The notes under the pieces were generated by a model. It did no database searches and was not told the origin of the DNA. It saw only the letters and a list, made by a program, of their open reading frames with translations. From Cupriavidus malaysiensis (GTDB lineage Bacteria; Pseudomonadota; Gammaproteobacteria; Burkholderiales; Burkholderiaceae), in assembly GCF_001854325.1 (NCBI RefSeq), contig NZ_CP017755.1, positions 62,001 to 126,000 on the forward strand: DNA of 64,000 bases. Direction: 5' to 3'. The position numbers and the translations under genes were made by a program. This document shows positions 2,843-32,841 of this stretch, in pieces; within the stretch, counting starts at the first letter, position 1; every line of letters starts with the position of its first letter.

Positions 2843-3661
2843 ATGATTGCCGACACCGTGCAGGACCGCATCAACAGGAAGGCATGGACCAGCTGGGGCG
2901 CGCGCCACTGGTTCGCCGTGGCGGCCGATGTCACCGATCCGGGCGAGGCGGCGGCGCTGGCGCTGGTGGCCGATGCCGCGCGCGGCGCGCCGCTGCTCGA
3001 CGTCGGTGTCGGCGGCGGACGTACGGTGCCGATGCTGCGCGCGCTCAGCCAGGACTACGTGGCGATCGACTACACGCCGGAGATGGTCGAGATCTGCCGG
3101 CGCAACCATCCCGGCGTGGCCGTGCACCAGATGGACGCGCGCGACCTGTCGGCCTTTCCCGACGACCATTTCGGCCTGGTCATGTTCAGCTTCAACGGCA
3201 TCGACGCGGTGGATCCCGCCGGACGCGCGGCGATCCTGCGCGAGTTCGCCCGCGTGCTGCGTCCGGGCGGCCTGCTGCTGTTCTCCACGCACAACCTGCG
3301 CGGCCCGAGCTACCGCGAGAACCTGACGCGCTTCCTGCGCCTGCCGCGCTGGTCGCCCAATCCCCTGCGGCTGGGCTTCGACACGGCGCGCATCGTCGTC
3401 AACCTGCCGCTGGCCACCATCAACTACCTGCGCCACTCGCGGCTGAACCGCGAGTTCGATGGCTATGCGCTGCGCGTATGCGCTGCCCACAAGTTCGGCA
3501 TCGTCATCCACTACATCGAGCTGGCCGCGCAGCAGCGCGCCCTGCTCGAACTCGGCCTGCGTACCGAGGCCATCTTCGGCAACCTGGACGGCCATGCGCT
3601 GCGCGGGCAGGAGGATCTCAGCCAGGTCTACTGGTTCCACTTCGTCGCCAGGAAAGGTTGA
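2843..3661 (+). CDS. Class I SAM-dependent methyltransferase
   Basis: The 272-residue product has a Rossmann methyltransferase core. Motif I reads LLDVGVGGGRTV at about residues 52-63, followed by an acidic end-of-strand-2 segment (VAIDYTPEMVEICRRNHPG) and a motif IV region (LVMFSFNGID). It closely follows the type-11/25 methyltransferases common in polysaccharide clusters, which modify sugars or lipid carriers. The start is fixed by GAGGAGG at 2831-2837, six bases from the ATG. The gene is followed 16 bases later by a GT2 gene, so the two are probably co-transcribed. The acceptor substrate cannot be read from the sequence. Confidence 0.8.
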   Translation: MIADTVQDRINRKAWTSWGARHWFAVAADVTDPGEAAALALVADAARGAPLLDVGVGGGRTVPMLRALSQDYVAIDYTPEMVEICRRNHPGVAVHQMDARDLSAFPDDHFGLVMFSFNGIDAVDPAGRAAILREFARVLRPGGLLLFSTHNLRGPSYRENLTRFLRLPRWSPNPLRLGFDTARIVVNLPLATINYLRHSRLNREFDGYALRVCAAHKFGIVIHYIELAAQQRALLELGLRTEAIFGNLDGHALRGQEDLSQVYWFHFVARKG

Positions 3662-3677
3662 GGGGCGGGCGTCGGCC

Positions 3678-4559
3678 ATGAGCGGCATCTCGGTCCTGAT
3701 CCTGACCAAGAACGAGCAGCAGGACCTGCCAGGCTGCCTGCAGTCCGTGGCCTGGTCGGACGATATCCATGTCTACGACTCGATGAGCACCGACCGGACC
3801 GTGGAGATCGCCCGCGCGCACGGTGCCAAGGTAGTGCAGCGTCCGTTCGACAACTGGTCCGCGCACCAGAACTGGGGGCTGCGCAATATCCCTTTCCGCC
3901 ACGAGTGGGTCTACTACACGGATGCCGATGAGCGCGTGACGCCCCAGCTCGCCCACGCCATGCAGCTGGCCGTGACGGACCCGGGCGATGCGGTGGCCTT
4001 CCGCGTCTCCCGCCGCGACCACCTGCAGGGGCGCTGGCTGCGCCACGTCACGCCGACGTCGTTCTACATCCGCCTGTTCAAGCCGGCCAGCGTTCACTAC
4101 GAGCGGCTGATCAACCCGGTCACCATTGTCGACGGCGAGGTGCGCGACCTGGCCGCGCACATGGACCACTTCCCGTTCAGCAAGGGGATGTCGCACTGGT
4201 TCGACAGGCACAATCAATACAGCTCGCTGGAAGCCCGCCAGATCGTGCAGAACCGGCAGCAAGGCACGTCGTTCAGCGTGCGCAGCGCCCTGCTCGAAAA
4301 GGACCCCGGCCGGCGCCGCTATCACCAGAAGGAACTCTACTACCGGCTGCCGATGCGCCCGCTGCTGATGTTCCTGCTTCTCTATGGCTTGCGGCGCGGC
4401 TTCCTCGACGGCTCGGCCGGCCTGACGTACGCGCTGCTGCGGGCCTACTACGAATACATGATCGTGCTGAAGGTACGAGAACTCGATCGCGCCGACGGCA
4501 GCCAGGACAGTCAACGCAGCCAAGGCAAGCAAGGCAGCCAGGGCAGCCAGGGCGGCTGA
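3678..4559 (+). CDS. Family 2 glycosyltransferase (WaaE/KdtX-like)
   Basis: The 293-residue protein starts with the GT-A signature ISVLILTKNEQQDLPGCLQSV and carries a DXD-like metal site in VYYTDADERVTPQ. The later region (HLQGRWLRHV, IRLFKP, HMDHFPFSKGMSHWFDRHNQYSS) matches the WaaE/KdtX-type transferases that add hexoses to LPS or EPS. The last 20 residues are a low-complexity Ser/Gln/Gly tail encoded by repeated GGCAGCCAG units. The start at 3678 is chosen because it leads directly into the first beta-strand; no strong ribosome site is visible. It is the last gene of the plus-strand group and is convergent with wzc. Confidence 0.85.
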   Translation: MSGISVLILTKNEQQDLPGCLQSVAWSDDIHVYDSMSTDRTVEIARAHGAKVVQRPFDNWSAHQNWGLRNIPFRHEWVYYTDADERVTPQLAHAMQLAVTDPGDAVAFRVSRRDHLQGRWLRHVTPTSFYIRLFKPASVHYERLINPVTIVDGEVRDLAAHMDHFPFSKGMSHWFDRHNQYSSLEARQIVQNRQQGTSFSVRSALLEKDPGRRRYHQKELYYRLPMRPLLMFLLLYGLRRGFLDGSAGLTYALLRAYYEYMIVLKVRELDRADGSQDSQRSQGKQGSQGSQGG

Positions 4560-4659
4560 CACCGGATGATACCTGAGCGCGGTCCGCCGCGCATGCGTGG
4601 CCGCGCCTTGTCTCGCCTCGGACGGCGCCGCATGCCGGCGGCGCCGGATTGCCGCGGCC

Positions 4660-6897
4660 TCAGGCCTGCCTGCTGCCGGTGCCTCCGTACTGGTTCAGGT
4701 AGCGGTACTTGCCGAAGCGGTAATGGGCCCGGTACCAGCGGCCATCGACATTGAGGCCGTTGAACAGCACGCCCTTCACTTCTCCGCCCGCCTGCTGGAT
4801 GGCCCGCTGCGAAGCGATCAGCTCGTCGGGCGTGGTCTTGTCCGCGCGCGCGACGAGGAAGACGGCGCCCGCCCGTGCGGCCAGGATGCCGGCATCGGCG
4901 GCGGCGAGGACAGGCGGCGTGTCGAGCAGGACGATGTCATAGCTTGCCTGCAGCAGGTCGAACAGGCGGTCCATGTTCGGGCTCTGCAGGAGGTCCGCGG
5001 CCTGGGGCGGCTGGGCGCCGGTCGCGATGAAGTCGACGCCCGGCAGCACGTCGCGCTGCAGCACGGCATCCAGCGCGGTCCCGGCCAGGTACTCGCTGAG
5101 TCCGGGGCTGCGATGCGTGCTGAAGCGGTGGTTGAGCCCGCCGCGACGCAGGTCGGCGTCGACCAGGACCACCCGGCGTCCGCTGCTGGCCATCACGGCG
5201 GCGAAGTTCGAGCACACGAAGGACTTGCCGACGTCGGGGGCCGGGCCGGTGACCAGCACCACGCGGTTGCGGCTGTTCAGCAGGGCGAACTGCAGGGCCG
5301 TGCGGAAGCCGCGCAGGCTTTCCAGGGCGGGGTCGTCCGGGCTGTCGCGCGCCAGCAGGCCGCGCGACGGCGCGTCGCCCTGCCGCCTGCCCTGCTGGGG
5401 AGAGAACGGGATCGTGCAGTAGACCGTCATGCCGGTGAGCCGCTCGATCTCGTCCGCGTCGGTGATGCCGCCGTCGAGCGTGCGGCGCAGGACCACCGCC
5501 AGGACGCCGGCGACCAGGCCGAGCACGATGGCGGCACCGCCGATCATCAGGCGCTTCGGCCGCACCGGATAGAGCGGGACGTCGGCCATGTCCACCAGGC
5601 GCGAAGTGCCGATCTTGCTGGCCCGCACCAGCCGCAGTTGCTGCACGTCGTTGAGCAGGGACTGGTACAGGTCGGTGCTGACCTTGACGTCACGCATCAG
5701 GCGCAGCACGTCCTGCTCGACCTCGGGCAGCTTCTCGATCTTGCCGGTCACGCCATTGAGCTGGGAGCTCAGGCTGGCGATCTGGCCGTCCAGGATGGCG
5801 ATGATGGGGTGGTTCGGCGTGAAGCGGGCGATCAGTTCCTGGCGCTTCTGGCGCAACTCCTGCAAGCGCGTCTGGATCTGCACCGATTGCGTCAGCACCA
5901 GCTTGGATTCCTCGCTCAGGTCGATCGTGCCGCGCTTGTTGCGCATGGCGTTGTAGCGGCTTTCGGCGTTCTCCACCTGCTGCTTGAGCAGCGGCAGCTG
6001 GGCCTCGAGGAACTCGAGCGATTTCTCTGCCTCGGCGGCCTTGCGCCGCACGTTCTGGTCGACATATTCGGTGCCGATCGCGTTCAGGATGGCCGCGGTG
6101 CGCTCGGCGGAGCTTCCCTCCAGCGAGATGCCGATCACGCCGCTCTGCTTGCCGCGCTCGAGGATCACGAGCTGGTTCTGCAGGTTGTCGATGGCCACGC
6201 TGCGGGCAATGTGGCGCACCACGAATTTCGCGCCCGGGCGTCCGTCCAGCTGGCTGATCAGGATCGTCACCGGGCCGCCCGGCGTCGGGATGACGAGCGG
6301 CGTTCCCACGGTGCCGGTGGCCGTCACGCCCTCGCTGTGCAATTCGGCACGGAATTGGTCCGAGGCCAGGGCGGTCACCATGATGGGACGCCCCTCCACC
6401 CGGACCGGCACGTCGAGCCTGGCGACGGAGATCGCTTCGGCACCCCACGCAAAGCCGCCCCAGCCGAGCAGGCCCGGCTCGGAGAGCACCGGGTTGTAGC
6501 GCGCGATCGCGGTCCCGAGCAAGGGGAAGTAGCGCGGCGCCGCCTCGATGTTCAGGTGCAGGGAGTCGACCGCCTTGCCGACCACCATGCGCGAGCGCAG
6601 CAGCTCGATTTCCGCGGCCGCCGCCGGCTTGACATCGAGCGCGGGGGAGACGCTGGCGACCAGCTTGGCGGTGCTGCTGGGCGTGGCGCCTTCCTCCACC
6701 TGGATCAGGATATCGGTGCGGTACACGGGCTTGGCCAGGAAGGCGTACGCCAGTCCGGAGCAGGCGATGACGCCGACCATCAGCAGGAAGGTCCAGCGGT
6801 AGCGGACCAGCACATCGAGGCACTCGGTGAGGTCGATCGGCCTGCTGTCCTGGCCGGTCGGCTCGTAGTCCCGGCCCGTCGCATTCTCTGTGCTCAT
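4660..6897 (-). CDS. wzc: Polysaccharide co-polymerase / tyrosine autokinase Wzc
   Basis: This 745-residue BY-kinase spans the inner membrane and sets EPS chain length with Wza and the phosphatase. The N-terminus is cytosolic, a first membrane helix lies at about 36-54, and a periplasmic Wzz/GNVR region with coiled coils follows (about 60-440). After a second helix near 450 comes the kinase domain: Walker A GPAPDVGKS near 549-557, Walker A' VLVDADLRRGG near 577-587 and Walker B IVLLDTPP near 653. The tail holds a tyrosine cluster (RAHYRFGKYRYLNQYGG), the usual autophosphorylation site. The start codon overlaps the stop of the phosphatase gene in an ATGA, with GGGAGAC upstream. It is the third gene of the minus-strand wza-wzb-wzc operon. 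Confidence 0.93.
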   Translation of the reverse strand: MSTENATGRDYEPTGQDSRPIDLTECLDVLVRYRWTFLLMVGVIACSGLAYAFLAKPVYRTDILIQVEEGATPSSTAKLVASVSPALDVKPAAAAEIELLRSRMVVGKAVDSLHLNIEAAPRYFPLLGTAIARYNPVLSEPGLLGWGGFAWGAEAISVARLDVPVRVEGRPIMVTALASDQFRAELHSEGVTATGTVGTPLVIPTPGGPVTILISQLDGRPGAKFVVRHIARSVAIDNLQNQLVILERGKQSGVIGISLEGSSAERTAAILNAIGTEYVDQNVRRKAAEAEKSLEFLEAQLPLLKQQVENAESRYNAMRNKRGTIDLSEESKLVLTQSVQIQTRLQELRQKRQELIARFTPNHPIIAILDGQIASLSSQLNGVTGKIEKLPEVEQDVLRLMRDVKVSTDLYQSLLNDVQQLRLVRASKIGTSRLVDMADVPLYPVRPKRLMIGGAAIVLGLVAGVLAVVLRRTLDGGITDADEIERLTGMTVYCTIPFSPQQGRRQGDAPSRGLLARDSPDDPALESLRGFRTALQFALLNSRNRVVLVTGPAPDVGKSFVCSNFAAVMASSGRRVVLVDADLRRGGLNHRFSTHRSPGLSEYLAGTALDAVLQRDVLPGVDFIATGAQPPQAADLLQSPNMDRLFDLLQASYDIVLLDTPPVLAAADAGILAARAGAVFLVARADKTTPDELIASQRAIQQAGGEVKGVLFNGLNVDGRWYRAHYRFGKYRYLNQYGGTGSRQA

Positions 6898-7358
6898 GAT
6901 GTCTCCCGGAAGCCAGCCGGAGACGCATCCCCGGCGATCTTGCCCGCCCACGAATCGACGCCCTGACGGATCAGGCTGAAGGCGAGGAGGAACAGGCCGT
7001 GCGTGCCGCCGTAGGGGTCGGGAACATCGAGGTCCAGCGACTCGCACAGGCGGAACGTCCTGCCGTGCGCGGCAGGAAAGCTCTGTTCGACCATTTCCAT
7101 CTGCTGCGCCTCCATCACCAGGATCAGGTCGGCGAAGTCGACCATGGCCGCGTTCAAGCGCTGCGCCCGATGCTCGTCCATGGCGATGCCTTCGAGCGCC
7201 AGCAGCCGGCCGGCGCGGGGATCGACCAGGGCGCCCACCGCCGGCGCGATGCCCGCGGAGATGACCTGGCACGCGGGCAGGCTGCGCCGCAGCAGCGCTG
7301 CCGCCATCGGGCTGCGGCAGCGGTTGCCGAGGCAGACCACCAGGATGGATCGGATCAT
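6894..7358 (-). CDS. wzb: Low-molecular-weight protein-tyrosine phosphatase (Wzb-type)
   Basis: The 154-residue protein has the phosphatase P-loop CLGNRCRS at residues 9-16 (Cys9 nucleophile, Arg15), placed right at the N-terminus as the family requires. The general-acid loop DVPDPYGG lies near residue 114. In EPS systems this enzyme removes phosphate from the tyrosine tail of Wzc and keeps polymer export cycling. The gene lies between wza and wzc, 11 bases after wza and overlapping the wzc start by 4 bases, which supports co-translation. Confidence 0.93.
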   Translation of the reverse strand: MIRSILVVCLGNRCRSPMAAALLRRSLPACQVISAGIAPAVGALVDPRAGRLLALEGIAMDEHRAQRLNAAMVDFADLILVMEAQQMEMVEQSFPAAHGRTFRLCESLDLDVPDPYGGTHGLFLLAFSLIRQGVDSWAGKIAGDASPAGFRETS

Positions 7359-7369
7359 CTACCGTTCCT

Positions 7370-8533
7370 TCAAGGCTTGATGAAGCTGGAGGTGCCCACC
7401 ACCGGCTGCACCAGCAGGCTCATCACGCGGCTCCAGCGGACCACGCCGCGCGCGTCCACGTAGACCACGTCCTTGGGCTGCAGCTCGAAGCCTTCGGCGA
7501 TGGCCAGCGCGGCGGGCGACGTGCCGTCCAGGTGATAGACCTTGGGGGCGTCGCTCAGTCCCTTGCGGATGACGAAGATCTCTTCAGCGTTGGCGGTGGC
7601 CGGATTGACACCGCCGGCATCGCCCAGGGCCTCGTTCAGCGTCATGCGGCCGTTGCGCATCAGCAGCGAGGTCGGGCGCACCACCTCGCCGGTGACGAAG
7701 ATCTTGCTGTCTTCGCGCTGCTCGACGCGGACGATGTCGCCGGACTTCAGCAGGATGCGCGCCGGATCGACGCCCTTGGCCAGCAGGGCCGGGATGTTGA
7801 CGTACCAGCTGCGGTCGCCGCGCGTGACGCGGATGCGGCTGTTGTCGCCGGTCTGGTTGAGCACGCCGCCGGCGCGGTTCAGGGCCTCCACCAGGGTCAT
7901 CGGCGCATCGTCGATCGCCAGCATGCCCGGCGTCTTCACTTCGCCGTCGACGTAGACGCGCTGGCTGCGGAAGCCCAGCACGCGCACCGTCATCTGCGGA
8001 TCCCTGACGACGCGCGACAGCACGCGCGCCATCTGTGCGCGCACTTCGTTGGCGGTCTTGCCGGCGACCCGCATGACCCCGGCGTACGGGAACTGGATAT
8101 CGCCCTGGGGACTGACCACGTACCCCGGCATGTTCGAGCCGCCGGTCGAGGTGGGGATCTCGAAGGCCGCGCCGATGCTGTAGGTCTGCGTCGGGAAGAC
8201 CAGTTCCGGATGATCCCAGACCACCACGGAGATGATGTCGCCGGTGCCGATCCGGTACGGCTGGGGCTGGCCGAACAAGGCTTCGACGTCCTGGTTGGCG
8301 ACGGGGGCCTTGTTGCGCAGTTCGCGCACCAGCTCCAGCGTGATCGGGGTGACCTCGGGAATCGCGTCCGGTCCCATGGCGCTCACCGGCGCGCCGGCGC
8401 TGAAGTGCATGCCCGGAGACGCCGCGCAGGCGCCCAGCAGGACGCAGGCGCCGAGCGCGAGGCAGCGCGCGCGCGCCATGGCCCGCGCCGTGCCGGCGGC
8501 ATCTGTGCTGGAGAGCGAGCGGCTTGGATGCAT
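7370..8533 (-). CDS. wza: Outer-membrane polysaccharide export lipoprotein Wza
   Basis: The 387-residue lipoprotein forms the outer-membrane exit channel for the polysaccharide. A lipobox LGAC ends at Cys36. It is followed by the polysaccharide-export domain (YRIGTGDIISVVVWDHPEL) and SLBB-type soluble ligand-binding repeats (VYVDGEVKTPGML and IFVTGEVVRPTSLL). The ATG at 8533 follows GGGAGG on the minus strand; a start 16 codons upstream lacks such a site and is less likely. It is the first gene of the wza-wzb-wzc operon and is divergent from a GT4 gene across a 281-base promoter region. Confidence 0.92.
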   Translation of the reverse strand: MHPSRSLSSTDAAGTARAMARARCLALGACVLLGACAASPGMHFSAGAPVSAMGPDAIPEVTPITLELVRELRNKAPVANQDVEALFGQPQPYRIGTGDIISVVVWDHPELVFPTQTYSIGAAFEIPTSTGGSNMPGYVVSPQGDIQFPYAGVMRVAGKTANEVRAQMARVLSRVVRDPQMTVRVLGFRSQRVYVDGEVKTPGMLAIDDAPMTLVEALNRAGGVLNQTGDNSRIRVTRGDRSWYVNIPALLAKGVDPARILLKSGDIVRVEQREDSKIFVTGEVVRPTSLLMRNGRMTLNEALGDAGGVNPATANAEEIFVIRKGLSDAPKVYHLDGTSPAALAIAEGFELQPKDVVYVDARGVVRWSRVMSLLVQPVVGTSSFIKP

Positions 8534-27679: not shown

Positions 27680-29173
27680 ATGAACAAGACTCTACTAGCG
27701 TCAGCCATCGCGCTCGCGTTGGGCGCGGGCGGCCAGGCTATGGCGAACCCAACGGCCACCAATACGGCAGGCAGCAACAACAGGGAGACCGCAACCGCAA
27801 CGTCGGCACAGTCCGGTGCCGGCGCGTTGGCGAATGAAAATTCCAGCGCATCGCAGGACAACAGCCAGCACAACTCGGCCGCCATCAACGTGACGGCCAA
27901 CCGGACCAAGACCACCACCACCACCACCACCAAGACGAAGGGCTGGAACACCTTCAGCGATGCCTATGGCAACGCCGGCGCCAACAACGGGAGCACGGCC
28001 GTTGCCAGCTTCAGCAACGCATTCAATACCAGCAAGGCGGTGGCGATCAGCAAGCTGCAGGGTTCGGTCAGCGGCCTGTCGATCAGCAACATCGGTAACT
28101 GGGCGCAGAACAACGGCAACGCCAACGGCGCGCGCGGCGGCATGGGCGGTACCGGCAACGGCGGCATGGGCGGCACCGGCAACGGCGCAGTCGGTGCGGT
28201 GGGCGGTGCTGGCGGAACGTCGACCAATCATGGCGCACAAGCCGGCAATTCGACCAACGGCGGCGCAAGTGCCGGCAATGGTGGTGCCGGTGGCGCGGCG
28301 TCCGGCAGTGGCGGCGACGGCGGTTCCGGCCGCGGCTCCGGCGGTGACGCGCTCAGTGCCAGCGTCGGCGTTGGCGGCAGAGGCGGGAGTGGCAGCGGCA
28401 CCGGTGGCGATCCGCAGGCCGCGACTGGATCCGGCAGCGGTGGCGCCGGTGGCGGTGCGGGCAGCAGGGGCGGCGGTTCGCTTGGCGTAAGCGCTGGCGC
28501 AGGTGGCGATAGCGGCGCTAACGGTGGTGTTGCCCTCGGCGGCCTGCTCGGTGGTGCGAACCATCACTCCAGCAGCAGCGGCACGGGCGGTTCAGCCAAC
28601 TCTGGCGCGACCGCTGGCAACGCCGGTAACGGCGGCGGCGGCGCGGTCAGCACCGCAGGCGGCAACTCGGCCGCAGGCGGCGGCGCAGGCGGTGGCGCCA
28701 CCGGCGGTTCGTCGATGGCCAGCGGCGGCAACGCTGGTGGTACTGGTGGCACTGGCGGCAATGGCTCCGGCGGTATGTCCGTGGCCACTGGCGGTGCCGG
28801 CAGCGGCACCGGCGGCGCTGGTGGCGATCAAGCCAGTGTCGGCGGCAACGGCGGCGCGGGCGGCTCGGCCAGCAACGGCAGTTCGTCCACCATGGCCAGC
28901 AACGGCAGCGCGACGGCCGGCAATGGCGGCAATGGCGGCAGTGGCGGCTCCGGCGCGGGCGGTACCGGTGGCGTAGGCAATGGCGGTGTGGCAGGCGCCG
29001 GCGGCGCGGGCGGCTCGAACTCCGTCAACGCCGGTACCTTCAACATGTCCAGCACCATGTCCGCGGTCGGCAATGCGGCGGCCGGCATCATGGTGGTCAG
29101 CCAGAACAGCGGCCTGGCCTCGCTGGCGCAACAGGCTGTCACGGTGCAGTCGAACCTGACCGTGGGTCACTAA
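27680..29173 (+). CDS. Secreted Gly-rich repetitive protein of a Fap-like locus
   Basis: The 497-residue protein has a clear signal peptide (cleavage near QAMA-N). An Asn/Ser/Thr-rich region and a seven-Thr tract (about residues 77-83) come first, then a conserved-looking block (about 86-140, AISKLQGSVSGLSISNIGNWAQNN). A roughly 300-residue Gly/Ala/Ser low-complexity region (GGxGG, GNGG) follows. The C-terminal 45 residues are distinct again and end in VVSQNSGLASLAQQAVTVQSNLTV, a Q/N-S/T-G pattern reminiscent of curli and Fap amyloid repeats. With a C39 peptidase and a FapF-like barrel downstream, it is probably the major extracellular fibre or matrix protein. Homology to FapB/FapC is not demonstrated. 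The ribosome site is GGGAG. Confidence 0.75.
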   Translation: MNKTLLASAIALALGAGGQAMANPTATNTAGSNNRETATATSAQSGAGALANENSSASQDNSQHNSAAINVTANRTKTTTTTTTKTKGWNTFSDAYGNAGANNGSTAVASFSNAFNTSKAVAISKLQGSVSGLSISNIGNWAQNNGNANGARGGMGGTGNGGMGGTGNGAVGAVGGAGGTSTNHGAQAGNSTNGGASAGNGGAGGAASGSGGDGGSGRGSGGDALSASVGVGGRGGSGSGTGGDPQAATGSGSGGAGGGAGSRGGGSLGVSAGAGGDSGANGGVALGGLLGGANHHSSSSGTGGSANSGATAGNAGNGGGGAVSTAGGNSAAGGGAGGGATGGSSMASGGNAGGTGGTGGNGSGGMSVATGGAGSGTGGAGGDQASVGGNGGAGGSASNGSSSTMASNGSATAGNGGNGGSGGSGAGGTGGVGNGGVAGAGGAGGSNSVNAGTFNMSSTMSAVGNAAAGIMVVSQNSGLASLAQQAVTVQSNLTVGH

Positions 29174-29374
29174 GCGGCAGGTGAGACAAGGCGGGATCCC
29201 GGAGGATGGCGGGATCCTGCCCATGCCCGATGTCATGCAGTGCGATGCACAGGCCGCGGTACGCGCGGGAAAGCGGCGCGTGCCGCGGCCTGTGCCGCCG
29301 CGGTCAAATGCCATTACCAGGGCGCGGTGCGGCGCGCGTGCCGGCGGGCGGTGGTGGCGGAAGGAGAGAACATC

Positions 29375-29791
29375 ATGCGCATGTTCCGAATCGCCCTTGC
29401 GACGCTGAGCGGGGTTGCCTTGAGCTGGCCCGCGGCGTTCGCCTTGGCCGGACCCGCCGCGATGGACGCGGCGCAGGGCCAGGCGGCGGCCTTGCAGGCA
29501 CCCGCGGCGGGATCGGCCGAGGGCGGCGCGGCGGCGAGTGCCGACCCGTTCGGCAAGCCCGTGGCCAGCGATCGGCTCGGCGATCTGCGCGGCGGCGCGC
29601 TGACGATCAGCGATATGGATGTGGCGGGCACGGTGGCGAACAATACCGCCAACCGGGTGATGACGGGATCGAACGCCATCAACGAAGGTTCGTTCGCCAA
29701 TGCGAGCGGCCTGTCGACCGTGGTCCAGAACACCGGGGCGAACGTGCTGATCCAGAACGCGACGATCCTCAATATCCAGTTCAAGCCATGA
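29375..29791 (+). CDS. Small exported protein with double-glycine motif, Fap-like locus
   Basis: The 138-residue protein has a Sec signal peptide (to about ALA-26), an Ala-rich propeptide, then PVASDRLGDLRGG ending at Gly74. The motif has hydrophobic residues at -4, -7 and -12 from the Gly-Gly, the spacing of double-glycine leaders that C39 peptidases cut. The 64-residue remainder is Asn-rich and ends with VVQNTGANVLIQNATILNIQF, a Q/N-T-G pattern like the end of the Gly-rich protein. AAGGAG lies nine bases before the ATG. Its stop overlaps the start of the C39 peptidase (ATGA), implying a peptidase-substrate pair. A role as minor fibre subunit or nucleator is inferred. Confidence 0.75.
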   Translation: MRMFRIALATLSGVALSWPAAFALAGPAAMDAAQGQAAALQAPAAGSAEGGAAASADPFGKPVASDRLGDLRGGALTISDMDVAGTVANNTANRVMTGSNAINEGSFANASGLSTVVQNTGANVLIQNATILNIQFKP

Positions 29792-30486
29792 GACTGGCAC
29801 GCTCTCTGCTGATCGCCGCGCAGCTCTCGCTGGCGCTGCTGCCGGCCGGCGTGGCATATGCGGATATCGCCAACTTGCAGGGCAGCCAGGGCGAGAATTA
29901 CCAGGTCCGGGTGGTCAGCCTCAAGCAGGCGCGTTTCAAGACGACCATCCAGCAGCAGTATGACTTCAGTTGCGGCTCGGCCGCAGTGGCCACCCTCCTC
30001 ACTTACCAGTACGGCTACAAGATCAACGAGGAGACGGTGTTCCAGGAAATGTACCAGAGCGGCGATCAAGCGAAGATCCGCCGCGAAGGATTCTCGCTGC
30101 TCGACATGAAGCGCTTCCTCGAATCGCGCGGCTTCATGGCGGACGGCTACGAGCTGCCCCTGTCAAAGCTCGAGGAAACGCAGATACCGGCCATCGTGCT
30201 GGTGATCGAGAACGGCTACCACCACTTCGTTGTCGTCAAGGGCGTGCGCGGCTCCCGTGTGCTGATCGGCGATCCCGCCACCGGCACGCGCGCGATCTCG
30301 CGCGAACACTTCAACGCGATCTGGGACAGCCAGTTGCTGTTCGTGATCCACAACCACGAGGAGGCGGCGCGCTTCAACCTGGCCGCCGACTGGCGGGTCG
30401 CACCGAGCGGGCCGCTGGAGATGGGGGTGAACCGCGACAGCCTGTTCTTCACGGTCATGCCGAAGCATGGCCCTGGGGATTTCTAG
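29788..30486 (+). CDS. Periplasmic C39-family cysteine peptidase (FapD-like)
   Basis: The 232-residue protein has a signal peptide (cleavage near AYA-D26) and a papain-like C39 peptidase domain. The oxyanion Gln and catalytic Cys lie in QQQYDFSCGSAAVATLL (Cys62), the His in GYHHFVVVKGV (His146) and the Asp in IGDPATG (Asp162), so all catalytic residues are intact. It has no ABC transporter part and is exported by Sec, unlike bacteriocin-processing C39 domains. The closest known role is FapD of Pseudomonas functional amyloid operons. Likely substrates are the double-glycine proteins encoded immediately before and after it. Confidence 0.88.
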   Translation: MRLARSLLIAAQLSLALLPAGVAYADIANLQGSQGENYQVRVVSLKQARFKTTIQQQYDFSCGSAAVATLLTYQYGYKINEETVFQEMYQSGDQAKIRREGFSLLDMKRFLESRGFMADGYELPLSKLEETQIPAIVLVIENGYHHFVVVKGVRGSRVLIGDPATGTRAISREHFNAIWDSQLLFVIHNHEEAARFNLAADWRVAPSGPLEMGVNRDSLFFTVMPKHGPGDF

Positions 30487-30497
30487 GAATCGAGATC

Positions 30498-31331
30498 ATG
30501 TTGCGAACCCCACTGCCCCGCCCGCGCTCCGGCGCCGGTGCGCGGGCCGCTGCGGCGCTGCTGGGCCTCGGGCTGGCCTGGTGCGGCGCCGCGCAAGCGA
30601 TCAATCCGCTGCAGCGTGAAGACGGCACTGGCGATGCGATGGCTGGCGCGTCGGCCAGGACCGGGCAGGGCAGTGCGCTGTCGCGCGCTCGAGACGGCAT
30701 GGCGGCCTGGGAACCGGTCGCGGCCGAGCGTCTGGAAGCGCTGCGTGGCGGCTTCGATGTCGGCGCGGGCTTGCAGGTGTCGTTCGGCATCGATCGCGCC
30801 GTGCTCATCAATGGCCAGCTCGTGGTGTCGACCAGCCTGAACATTCCCGATGTCAGCCAGATCACGGCGGCACAGGCCAATATGCTGGCCTCTCTGCTCG
30901 GCAATGTCAGCGCCGTGGTGGCGAATGCCAACAATGCCGCAGCCGCGGCGGGCAGCAATGGTCGCGGCGGTAATGGCGCCAATGGTGGCAACGGTGGCAG
31001 CGCAAGCGTGCCGGGTACGTCCGGCGCGGCCGCGGCGGCGGCACTGGTCGGAGGTGCCGGCCTGCCGACCAGCGTGTCCAGCAATGGCACCACCACCGTA
31101 GCCACCAACGGCCTGCTGACGCTGGTACAGAACGGCGGCGGCAACAGCATCGCGCCCGGAGCCATTCCCGCCTCGCTGGCTGCCACGGTGATCCAGAATT
31201 CACTGAACAACCAGGCCATCGCGAGCCTGACCAGCATCAATGCCGCCGTCAATACCCTGGGCGCCTTCCGTGCGATGCAGGCTGGTGCGTTACTGAACAG
31301 TACGCTGATCCAATCGGCGGTATCACGGTGA
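30498..31331 (+). CDS. Exported protein with double-glycine motif and Gly/Asn-rich segment, Fap-like locus
   Basis: The 277-residue protein has a signal peptide (cleavage near AQA-I35) and then PVAAERLEALRGG ending at Gly85, nearly the same motif as in the 138-residue protein, with Val, Leu and Leu at -12, -7 and -4. After the Gly-Gly comes FDVGAGLQVSFGIDRAVLINGQLVVSTSLNIPD, probably beta-strands, then a short Gly/Asn-rich stretch (about 152-170). The C-terminal part has repeated V-x-Q-N motifs (LVQNGGGNSI, VIQNSLNNQAI). It lies 11 bases after the peptidase gene. A FapE- or chaperone-like role is possible; no firm family is recognised. Confidence 0.7.
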   Translation: MLRTPLPRPRSGAGARAAAALLGLGLAWCGAAQAINPLQREDGTGDAMAGASARTGQGSALSRARDGMAAWEPVAAERLEALRGGFDVGAGLQVSFGIDRAVLINGQLVVSTSLNIPDVSQITAAQANMLASLLGNVSAVVANANNAAAAAGSNGRGGNGANGGNGGSASVPGTSGAAAAAALVGGAGLPTSVSSNGTTTVATNGLLTLVQNGGGNSIAPGAIPASLAATVIQNSLNNQAIASLTSINAAVNTLGAFRAMQAGALLNSTLIQSAVSR

Positions 31332-31416
31332 TGGTTTGATGCAGTGAAGCCCGAACAGGCGAGCAGGTAGCGGACGCCTGCGCAATCAGTCCGCCGTCCT
31401 GGGGAGGAGAGACGTG

Positions 31417-32841
31417 ATGAAGACTTGGTCGTTACGGGGGATCGGCCTGGCCGGATGTTCCACCTTGCTGCTTGGCTCGCTGGCGCATGCGCAGACGCAG
31501 CCTGCAGTGGAAGACGTCGACACATCGGCCACGAAGCTGGAGGCGCTCAAGCGCGAGGTGGCCGAGCAGGCCGCGGCGCTCGATGCGATGAAACAGTCGA
31601 TGGCGCAGCAGGAAGCGACCATCCGGGAATTGCGCGGCGTGCTCGGGCTCGATGTGCTCGCGCGCAAGCGAGGCGGCCAGCGTGCCGGCAGCGGCACGCC
31701 GGTGACGCCGAGCGATGCCGCGACCGCGGCCACCGCCGGCGCGGCGGCGACCAGTGCGACGCAGTCCGTACCCAATTTGCCAGCCAATGTCGTGCAGGGC
31801 GCACAGCCCGGCAGCGCGCAGGGCGACGGCATGCCGCTGGCCGGCGATCCGGAGCCCGTCGGCGTGGCGCCGCAGCGCGACGCGCGGCCGCCGGAGGTGG
31901 CGCCGATCTTCGACCAGCCCGGCGTGCTGACGCCAGCGAAGAAGCTGGTGATCGAGCCCTCGTTCCAATATGGCTATTCCTCAAGCGATCGCGTGGCGCT
32001 GATCGGCTACACCATCATTCCCGCCATCCTGATCGGCCTGATCGACGTGCGCCAGGTCAAGACTTCGACCTATGTGTCGGCGCTGGCTTTCCGCTACGGA
32101 CTGACCAACCGGCTCGAGATCGAGGCCAAGGTGCCCTATGTGCATGCGACCACCGACACGATCAGCCGCGAGATCTTCACGGGCTCGGCCAATGACAACG
32201 CCTTCGGTGCCTCGGGCTCGGGCCTCGGCGACGTCGAAGCGACCATCCGCTACCAGCTCAACCAGGGCACCGAGCGCCTGCCCTACTTCATCGGCTGGCT
32301 GCGCTACAAGTCGCGCACGGGGCGGGACCCCTTCGAGGTCACCACCGATTGCGTGACGCGCTGCGTGGCCAATACGACGGGCACGGGGCTGCCGCTGTCG
32401 ATGCCGACCGGCACCGGCTTCCAGGCGATCCAGCCCGGCATCACCTGGCTGTTCCCGAGCGACCCTGCCGTGTTCTTCGGCACCTTCAGCTATCTGCACA
32501 ATTTCACGCGCAGCAATGTGAGCCGCACCGTGCTGGGCGGGCAGCAGGAGTTCCTCGGCGACATCCGTGCAGGCGACATCTTCGAGTTCAGCTTCGGCGT
32601 CGGCCTGTCGCTCAACGAGAAGGCATCGTTCAGCATCGGCTATGACCAGAGCATCATCTGGCCGACCAAGCAGAACGGTGCGACGGTGCCGGGGTCGGTG
32701 CGCGTCACCCTGGGCACCTTGCTGGTGGGTTACTCGTACCGGTTCAGCAAGCGCTATACGCTGAACGTGTCGGTGGGCGCGGGCCTGACGCGCGACACGC
32801 CGGACCTGCAGGTCACGGTCCGGCTACCGATCACTTTCTGA
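31417..32841 (+). CDS. FapF-like outer-membrane secretion channel (coiled coil plus beta-barrel)
   Basis: The 474-residue protein has a signal peptide (AHA-Q near 25) and a coiled-coil segment (about 37-75, LEALKREVAEQAAALDAMKQSMAQQEATIRELRGVL). A Pro/Ala/Thr linker and a beta-barrel of about 300 residues follow, with alternating hydrophobic strands, ending VTVRLPITF with a terminal aromatic. Coiled coil, linker and C-terminal barrel is the layout of FapF, the amyloid exporter of Pseudomonas. The ATG at 31417 is eight bases after GGGGAGGA; a GTG one codon earlier is less well spaced. It would carry the Gly-rich and double-glycine proteins out of the cell. Confidence 0.78.
   Translation: MKTWSLRGIGLAGCSTLLLGSLAHAQTQPAVEDVDTSATKLEALKREVAEQAAALDAMKQSMAQQEATIRELRGVLGLDVLARKRGGQRAGSGTPVTPSDAATAATAGAAATSATQSVPNLPANVVQGAQPGSAQGDGMPLAGDPEPVGVAPQRDARPPEVAPIFDQPGVLTPAKKLVIEPSFQYGYSSSDRVALIGYTIIPAILIGLIDVRQVKTSTYVSALAFRYGLTNRLEIEAKVPYVHATTDTISREIFTGSANDNAFGASGSGLGDVEATIRYQLNQGTERLPYFIGWLRYKSRTGRDPFEVTTDCVTRCVANTTGTGLPLSMPTGTGFQAIQPGITWLFPSDPAVFFGTFSYLHNFTRSNVSRTVLGGQQEFLGDIRAGDIFEFSFGVGLSLNEKASFSIGYDQSIIWPTKQNGATVPGSVRVTLGTLLVGYSYRFSKRYTLNVSVGAGLTRDTPDLQVTVRLPITF

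Follow-up and report, generated by a model that had tools for sequence, protein, structure and literature searches.

What does a C39 peptidase act on when it is itself exported through the Sec pathway and has no ATP-binding cassette (ABC) transporter beside it? The question is raised by a locus of Cupriavidus malaysiensis located at 27680-32841, on the + strand, of the window, i.e., the whole stretch of 64,000 nucleotides analysed (contig NZ_CP017755.1). The locus is one five-gene operon of the Fap type, encoding ORF1, ORF2, C39, ORF4 and ORF5 (ORF, open reading frame). To our knowledge, what the C39 protein does during amyloid export of the Fap type is not settled. Taken as a whole, the best explanation, which is considered somewhat more probable than not, is that a leader helix present in three client proteins is recognised by the exported C39 protein, which likely cuts them at the glycines. 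The first-pass annotation had proposed a related view, with two clients. Its core, i.e., an exported C39 protein beside conserved motifs in a Fap-like operon, stands; its gene and motif coordinates hold, while its description of the gene order and its number of motif carriers had to be changed. The Sec-type signals of all five products were assigned by eye.

Leader-like motifs in ORF2 and ORF4

ORF2 (29375..29791; all features of the operon are on the + strand) encodes 138 residues: a Sec-type signal, a variable pro-region, a leader-like motif (29561..29596, V63ASDRLGDLRGG74) and a 64-residue C-terminal part with the end VVQNTGANVLIQNATILNIQFKP. In the motif stretch PVASDRLGDLRGG, the relevant residues are V63, L68, L71 and G73-G74. 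ORF4 (30498..31331) encodes a FapE-like protein of 277 residues, with a Sec-type signal and a motif at 30717..30752 (V74AAERLEALRGG85); the corresponding residues of the stretch PVAAERLEALRGG are V74, L79, L82 and G84-G85. Both proteins have V-x4-L-x2-L-R-G-G downstream of the Sec-type signal, as the first-pass annotation had described. The classic leader consensus is LSxxELxxIxGG. A leader defined by hydrophobic residues at −12, −7 and −4 followed by GG, GA or GS is found in ORF2 and ORF4 of the window; position −4 is variable in their relatives and is not hydrophobic in ORF5.

A strict motif pattern was composed after the orthologues had been inspected. In the 64-kb window, it occurs in 2 of 621 stop-to-stop frames (107,451 residues), i.e., exactly ORF2 and ORF4. 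Among the fetched loci it was found in 99 of 158 ORF2-type frames (a set with some FapB-like frames) and in 102 of 133 ORF4-type frames, the shuffle means being 0.14 and 0.22, respectively. The counts for the other frames are 6/160 (FapF-type), 0/168 (C39), 0/126 (ORF1-type) and 8/21,330 (all others). It must be noted that loci are counted as rows related by descent, and that the sets partly overlap.

All five genes are present in the 34 same-genus loci, with the motif in 34/34 ORF2 and 34/34 ORF4; its absence from the orthologues, which the first-pass annotation had named as the finding that would speak against its view, was not encountered. In a wider set (81 loci, window counted), 78 ORF2 and 80 ORF4 genes have the motif according to a scoring rule that favours Leu at −7 and requires GG or GR. 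The four misses have RAG (three) or RGA (one), those of ORF2 being L145, L148 and L146. The columns of MAFFT alignments of chosen subsets, where no scoring rule intervenes, have Leu at −7 in 42/42 ORF4, 33/33 ORF2 and 40/43 ORF5 sequences, and Arg at −3 in 42/42, 26/33 and 40/43, respectively; both positions are at least 90% conserved in the alignment of 43 ORF5 sequences. The last two motif positions are exclusively G or A in the ORF2 and ORF4 alignments.

In 78 of 79 called ORF2 genes (heuristic starts, no length filter), 63-69 residues follow the motif and 45-420 precede it. Ungapped pairwise identity was compared on both sides of the motif in 63 ORF2 and 62 ORF4 loci, «before» meaning the 25 positions upstream of the last seven motif positions. 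For ORF4, it is 0.13-0.29 before and 0.43-0.44 over the 20 positions after. The identity of the motif in this comparison (0.58 and 0.71) is partly built in by selection; the ORF2 motifs were preselected for 60-72 residues after the motif and for L, R/S/T/C and G/A at set positions.

Pfam has nothing for ORF1, ORF2 or ORF4. The ORF2 and ORF4 families are paralogous by pairwise profile comparison (97.7%, expectation value (E) 2.4e-12). ORF4 also matches FapE over the motif and the FG core (profile comparison 90%, E 1.6e-6), with no NCBIfam FapE match, and the comparison of ORF2 with the FapB-like set gives 17% (E 0.0014). The labels FapE, FapB and FapC of the comparison proteins come from NCBIfam matches below the cut-offs, that of FilA from matches above it. 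No second copy of ORF2 was found in the genome at E 0.01, and ORF4 has one weak partial match (E 0.004). A known solved fold for ORF4 was sought and rejected, the best of 359 weak matches having an E of 0.49.

The exported C39 peptidase and its neighbours

The C39 peptidase (29788..30486) has 232 residues and a Sec-type signal, is FapD/FilB-like and is devoid of an ABC domain. It matches Pfam C39 (3.3e-25). Its best NCBIfam match is FapD (3.2e-40; 137.8 of 330 bits), i.e., it is a relative and not an equivalog; the FilB match (3.9e-38; 131.4 of 475 bits) is also below the cut-off. The protein resembles the C39 domains of PCAT-type transporters (best 6mpz, 4.9e-9), the transporter parts being absent. 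The catalytic residues Q56, C62 (codon 29971-29973), H146 and D162 are invariant across six aligned rows. Among 168 C39 frames, the Cys is kept in 166, the His in 165, the Asp in 165 and Q56 in 166, the remainder being gaps. No ABC transporter gene lies within the operon. In the whole genome (7.95 Mb), no protein other than the window C39 exceeds the Pfam C39 cut-off, and by this measure no classical double-glycine exporter was found there. The first-pass statements on the intact catalytic residues and on the missing transporter are thus borne out.

A C39 orthologue with at least 71% identity is present in 34 of 36 same-genus genomes (own counted); one of the two genomes without it is 54% complete. 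A search of the named genomes with the window C39 gave at least 573 stretches coding for relatives, of which the best 80 were used. These 80 belong to Cupriavidus, Paraburkholderia, Burkholderia, Ralstonia, Pandoraea, Dyella, Luteibacter, Lysobacter, Massilia and others; C. metallidurans CH34 is among the records matched by the C39 search. In a record of Acinetobacter baumannii (L184), the FilB-like C39 gene appears as two adjoining open pieces.

The linkage was approached from the side of the motif carriers by two profile surveys in which C39 proximity was not demanded, but with profiles derived from genes linked to C39. With the ORF4 profile, matches were obtained in 12 of 398 genomes of the phylum; five of these genomes had been seen before (own and two same-genus genomes among them). 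C39 and ORF2 are both neighbours of the match in 13/13 cases, and 13/13 matches have RGGF. With the FapE-like profile, 15 of 369 genomes of the class gave matches, all of them previously known C39 carriers, and 16/16 matches adjoin C39. The commonest gene order is ORF1-ORF2-C39-ORF4-FapF, found in 82 of 166 typed loci (some places were fetched twice). A promoter and terminator scan of the locus gave 0 promoter-like and 1 terminator-like site, which is not above shuffles.

Leader-like motifs ending in GS, GR or GA were found in small exported proteins beside 3 of 14 C39 genes of another type. In these three loci (L069, L070 and L290), C39 is accompanied by a FapF-related barrel and by a small exported protein whose motif stretch is LSATEMESVEGS, IDTSEMDEVRGR or LSDQEMKNTEGA. 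L069 (complement 2959-3399, 3413-4561, 4315-4977) and L070 (2896-3909, 3870-4481, 4465-5319) are three-gene loci of two other same-genus genomes. Here, an exported C39 and a FapF-related barrel are encoded together with a small, bacteriocin-like exported protein, in which the motif ends in GS or GR and is followed by a Gly/Ala-rich body; the small proteins have no Pfam match. At L290 (complement 7132-7554), the 129-residue exported protein near C39 and the barrel gene bears LSDQEMKNTEGA, i.e., the motif ending in GA. In the class sample, genome G105 (L293-L297, L299) encodes seven C39 proteins of the type seen in L069 and L070, and a barrel-like match (E 3e-4 or better) is present in the stretch around each of them; the scan identified no leader-bearing clients for them. 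No leader-like proteins were found in the short flanks of L259-L266.

The FapF-like channel, its motif copy and the putative subunit

ORF5 (31417..32841; an alternative GTG start 3 bases upstream is possible from the open reading frame list) encodes a FapF-like barrel of 474 residues that closes the operon, as the first-pass annotation had stated. It comprises a signal, a coil helix (37-75), a short helix (78-85), a disordered linker and, from residue 161, the FapF match. The match to the solved FapF barrel of the PDB is at 1.5e-29 and that to NCBIfam FapF at 8.1e-39 (133.6 of 700 bits, thus not an equivalog). A FapF-type barrel with N-terminal coil and plug is thus recognised by homology, i.e., by the FapF match and by the predicted helix 37-75 followed by the barrel.

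A third motif copy, which the first-pass annotation with its two carriers had missed, lies in ORF5 at 31642..31677 (L76GLDVLARKRGG87), where the coiled-coil segment ends. Its last part, LARKRGG (residues 81-87), is placed where the coiled coil passes into the disordered linker. Of 79 channels, taken from the window and from named relatives, 72 have the pattern L-x3-R-[GA]-[GATRS] within the 125 residues that precede the barrel, against 4.7 on average and 11 at most in 500 shuffles; this pattern is post hoc, since an earlier form missed RGA, RGT and RAG and was widened after inspection. L-x3-R-G-G alone is found in 30 of 79 channels (0.3 in shuffles). Seven channels lack the pattern: L091 (RGM), L108 (RHATG), L092 (segment cut short), and L109, L119, L145 and L148, which have a short N-terminal segment with no visible coil. 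The pattern is present in 31 of 34 same-genus loci by a search over residues 1-180 of every open frame; the three loci in which it was missed have longer frames. Among distant channels, motif-like forms occur as RGG in L193 and L195, and as RGR- or GRG-like in L047, L049, L050 and L200.

The AlphaFold2 models suggest that the motif forms a helix followed by a flexible stretch in both ORF4 and ORF5. In ORF5 (mean predicted local distance difference test score, pLDDT, 76.0), the coil helix 37-75 is followed by the separate helix 78-85, which ends at the motif Arg, and the confidence is low across nearly all of 86-154. In the ORF4 model, the predicted helix 76-82 precedes a low-confidence stretch (84-88) and then strands.

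ORF1 (27680..29173) is the putative main exported subunit. It is a Gly-rich protein of 497 residues with a Sec-type signal, conserved N- and C-terminal parts (C-terminus GIMVVSQNSGLASLAQQAVTVQ) and no Pfam or NCBIfam match. No leader-like motif was found in the window protein. Seven consecutive in-frame ACC codons (27911-27931), i.e., a Thr stretch, lie within a TK-rich segment of ORF1. An identification of ORF1 as FapB or FapC is not supported: NCBIfam recognises neither in the operon, and the C-terminus of ORF1 compares with the FapC-like set at E 0.4 and with the FapB-like set at E 0.055. On this point the first-pass annotation was right.

Known systems and alternative explanations

The window operon has the D-E-F order in common with the Fap system of Pseudomonas and relatives (FapABCDEF; NCBIfam NF058557-NF058560, NF058616). 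The Fap comparison loci are the best matches below the NCBIfam cut-offs; one is from Aeromonas caviae and none is identified by name as Pseudomonas. The first-pass annotation considered that the order departs from fapABCDEF; the D-E-F part is the Fap order because ORF4 resembles FapE, and an exported C39 is therefore not peculiar to the window locus. Judged from the sequences, ORF2 is an added paralogue ahead of C39. The FapE-like proteins have LxDxELxxMRG[R/K], a near-match of the ORF4 motif: most of 11 aligned sequences have L/I/V at −12, D at −10, E at −8, L/M at −7, M/L at −4, then R-G-R, which is close to the classic leader consensus apart from −1. The window operon differs from Fap in that (i) two FapE-type paralogues flank C39; (ii) RGG replaces RGR or RGK; (iii) ORF1 is unrecognisable as FapB or FapC; (iv) the channel has its own motif copy; and (v) the scores are under the equivalog cut-offs. 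The profile searches against Fap families that the first-pass annotation had suggested thus give a FapD-like C39, a FapF-like ORF5 and an ORF4 resembling FapE, all below equivalog level or without an NCBIfam match.

The Fil system of Acinetobacter (FilA-FilF) also has an exported C39 (FilB) and a FapF-related barrel. FilA bears a leader-like MDDAALSAATGQ directly behind its signal, with M at −12, L at −7, A at −4 and then T-G-Q; similar proteins are found in L221 and L224. Unlike the window operon, Fil has the additional FilE and FilF and a Gln at −1 of FilA; ORF1, ORF2 and ORF4 have no FilA match, and membership of the window operon in Fil is below the cut-offs for FilC (37 of 630 bits) as it is for FilB. 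With the PCAT-type C39-ABC double-glycine export, the window shares the C39 fold, the catalytic residues and, in ORF2 and ORF4, the leader spacing (−12, −7, −4, Gly-Gly). However, the window C39 is a separate Sec-exported protein with no ABC transporter, the leader is placed behind a Sec signal and a pro-region, and the Arg at −3 hardly varies among ORF4 and ORF5 sequences.

The mechanism proposed is the following. The operon would serve to export amyloid-like surface proteins across the outer membrane by a system of the Fap type, an amyloid nature being suggested by the Fap relationship and the QN-rich repeats. All five products would reach the periplasm via Sec. There, the FapD-like C39 would bind a short helical leader, marked by a hydrophobic residue at −12, Leu at −7, Arg at −3 and then two small residues, in its clients ORF2, ORF4 and the channel ORF5; such recognition is highly probable. 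A cut at the double glycine, most likely, would strip the variable pro-regions of ORF2 and ORF4, freeing the 64-residue ORF2 peptide and the ORF4 domain; this cleavage is considered probable. A cut in ORF5, for which the chances appear slightly less than even, would perhaps part the coiled coil from the plug and barrel. Subunit maturation would thereby be coupled to channel opening. Where R/K or Q is found at −1, the cut may fall after the first glycine, or the motif may be bound yet left uncut.

Several observations weigh against this explanation, some of which concern the residue at −1. The last motif residue of the FapE-like proteins is R (12) or K (4) in 16/16, the named Acinetobacter FilA has Q, distant ORF2 relatives (L047, L186, L191, L192, L196) have R, and ORF5 can have T, R or M. 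The R/K of the FapE-like proteins, the Q of FilA and the R of these ORF2 relatives speak against a single simple rule; R/K or Q would also be ill-suited to the narrow pockets of C39 if cutting took place directly after it. The Arg/Lys of the FapE-like proteins therefore means that the motif may be a recognition element, with cutting differing between subfamilies. Position −4, often His/Tyr in ORF2 and Gln/Lys in ORF5, differs from classic leaders. The 20 residues after the ORF2 motif (identity 0.18-0.20) are no better conserved than the 25 before (0.14-0.22), and ORF1, likely the main subunit, lacks the motif. The channels of Fap-type, Fil-type and other distant loci mostly lack the ORF5 motif, 11 of 14 other-type C39 genes have no leader-bearing neighbour in the scan, and the ORF4 model is of moderate confidence (mean pLDDT 66.5, predicted template modelling score 0.42).

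The same residues at −1 would suit a C39 protein that acts as a chaperone or gatekeeper, i.e., that binds the motif without cutting and gathers subunits and channel in the periplasm, proteolysis taking place elsewhere. The tolerance of ORF5 for T, R and M agrees with such docking, and the tandem motif copies (two and three) in ORF4 of 2/34 same-genus loci (L031, L055) are compatible with avidity. Nevertheless, the known non-cutting C39-like domains have lost their Cys, whereas here Cys, His, Asp and Gln are all retained in 165-166 of 168 frames, and both glycine positions admit only G or A in the ORF2 and ORF4 alignments; docking alone is rather unlikely. It is very unlikely that the motif has nothing to do with C39 and instead has a structural or FapF-targeting function (e.g., as the start of a FapE-type domain or as a helix capping the coil), with C39 acting on another protein such as ORF1. 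The aromatic residue after the motif (F/Y in 39/42 ORF4, aromatic in 11/11 FapE-like proteins) does suggest continuity with the fold, and a FapF-like gene is near most loci. However, ORF2 keeps the motif with mostly no aromatic residue after it, and a similar pattern is found beside C39 in proteins otherwise dissimilar (the ORF5 coil end, FilA, the small exported proteins of L069, L070 and L290). Moreover, FapF is unseen in the short flanks of 2/16 FapE-like loci (it may lie farther off) where C39 is still present.

The operon could also be a plain divergent Fap operon with FapD, FapE and FapF and nothing new, the two-glycine form being a lineage-specific drift of the FapE motif. The FapD and FapF matches, the match to the FapF structure, the D-E-F order and the profile match of ORF4 with FapE all go in this direction. 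A second carrier is not unique either: the Fap-type loci L206 (4476-4865), L219 (complement 6681-7040) and L068 (2395-2751) have small exported upstream proteins, possibly FapA-like, with LSDxVLxxVxGRG-like motifs (no NCBIfam match for those of L206 and L219). Yet FapD and FapF score far under the equivalog cut-offs, FapB and FapC are unrecognised, and an ORF4-like paralogue before C39 and the channel motif are unseen in most Fap-type loci examined, which makes this explanation unlikely. On the same sequence grounds, what is new here is the ORF2/ORF4 paralogy and the third, looser motif copy in ORF5.

A broader view is put forward tentatively. The Sec-exported C39 peptidases of the Fap, Fil and window superfamily may perform a general periplasmic double-glycine processing, in which one protease would read a common leader helix in amyloid-type subunits and at the coil-linker junction of the channel; one cut would mature the cargo, another would unplug the channel, and related C39-plus-barrel loci might treat small bacteriocin-like peptides alike. 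The motif common to subunits and channel gives the FapD-type peptidases concrete candidate substrates and cut sites. If the explanation favoured here is true, double-glycine processing would shift from the inner-membrane ABC transporter to the periplasm, where it would be coupled to the opening of an outer-membrane channel.

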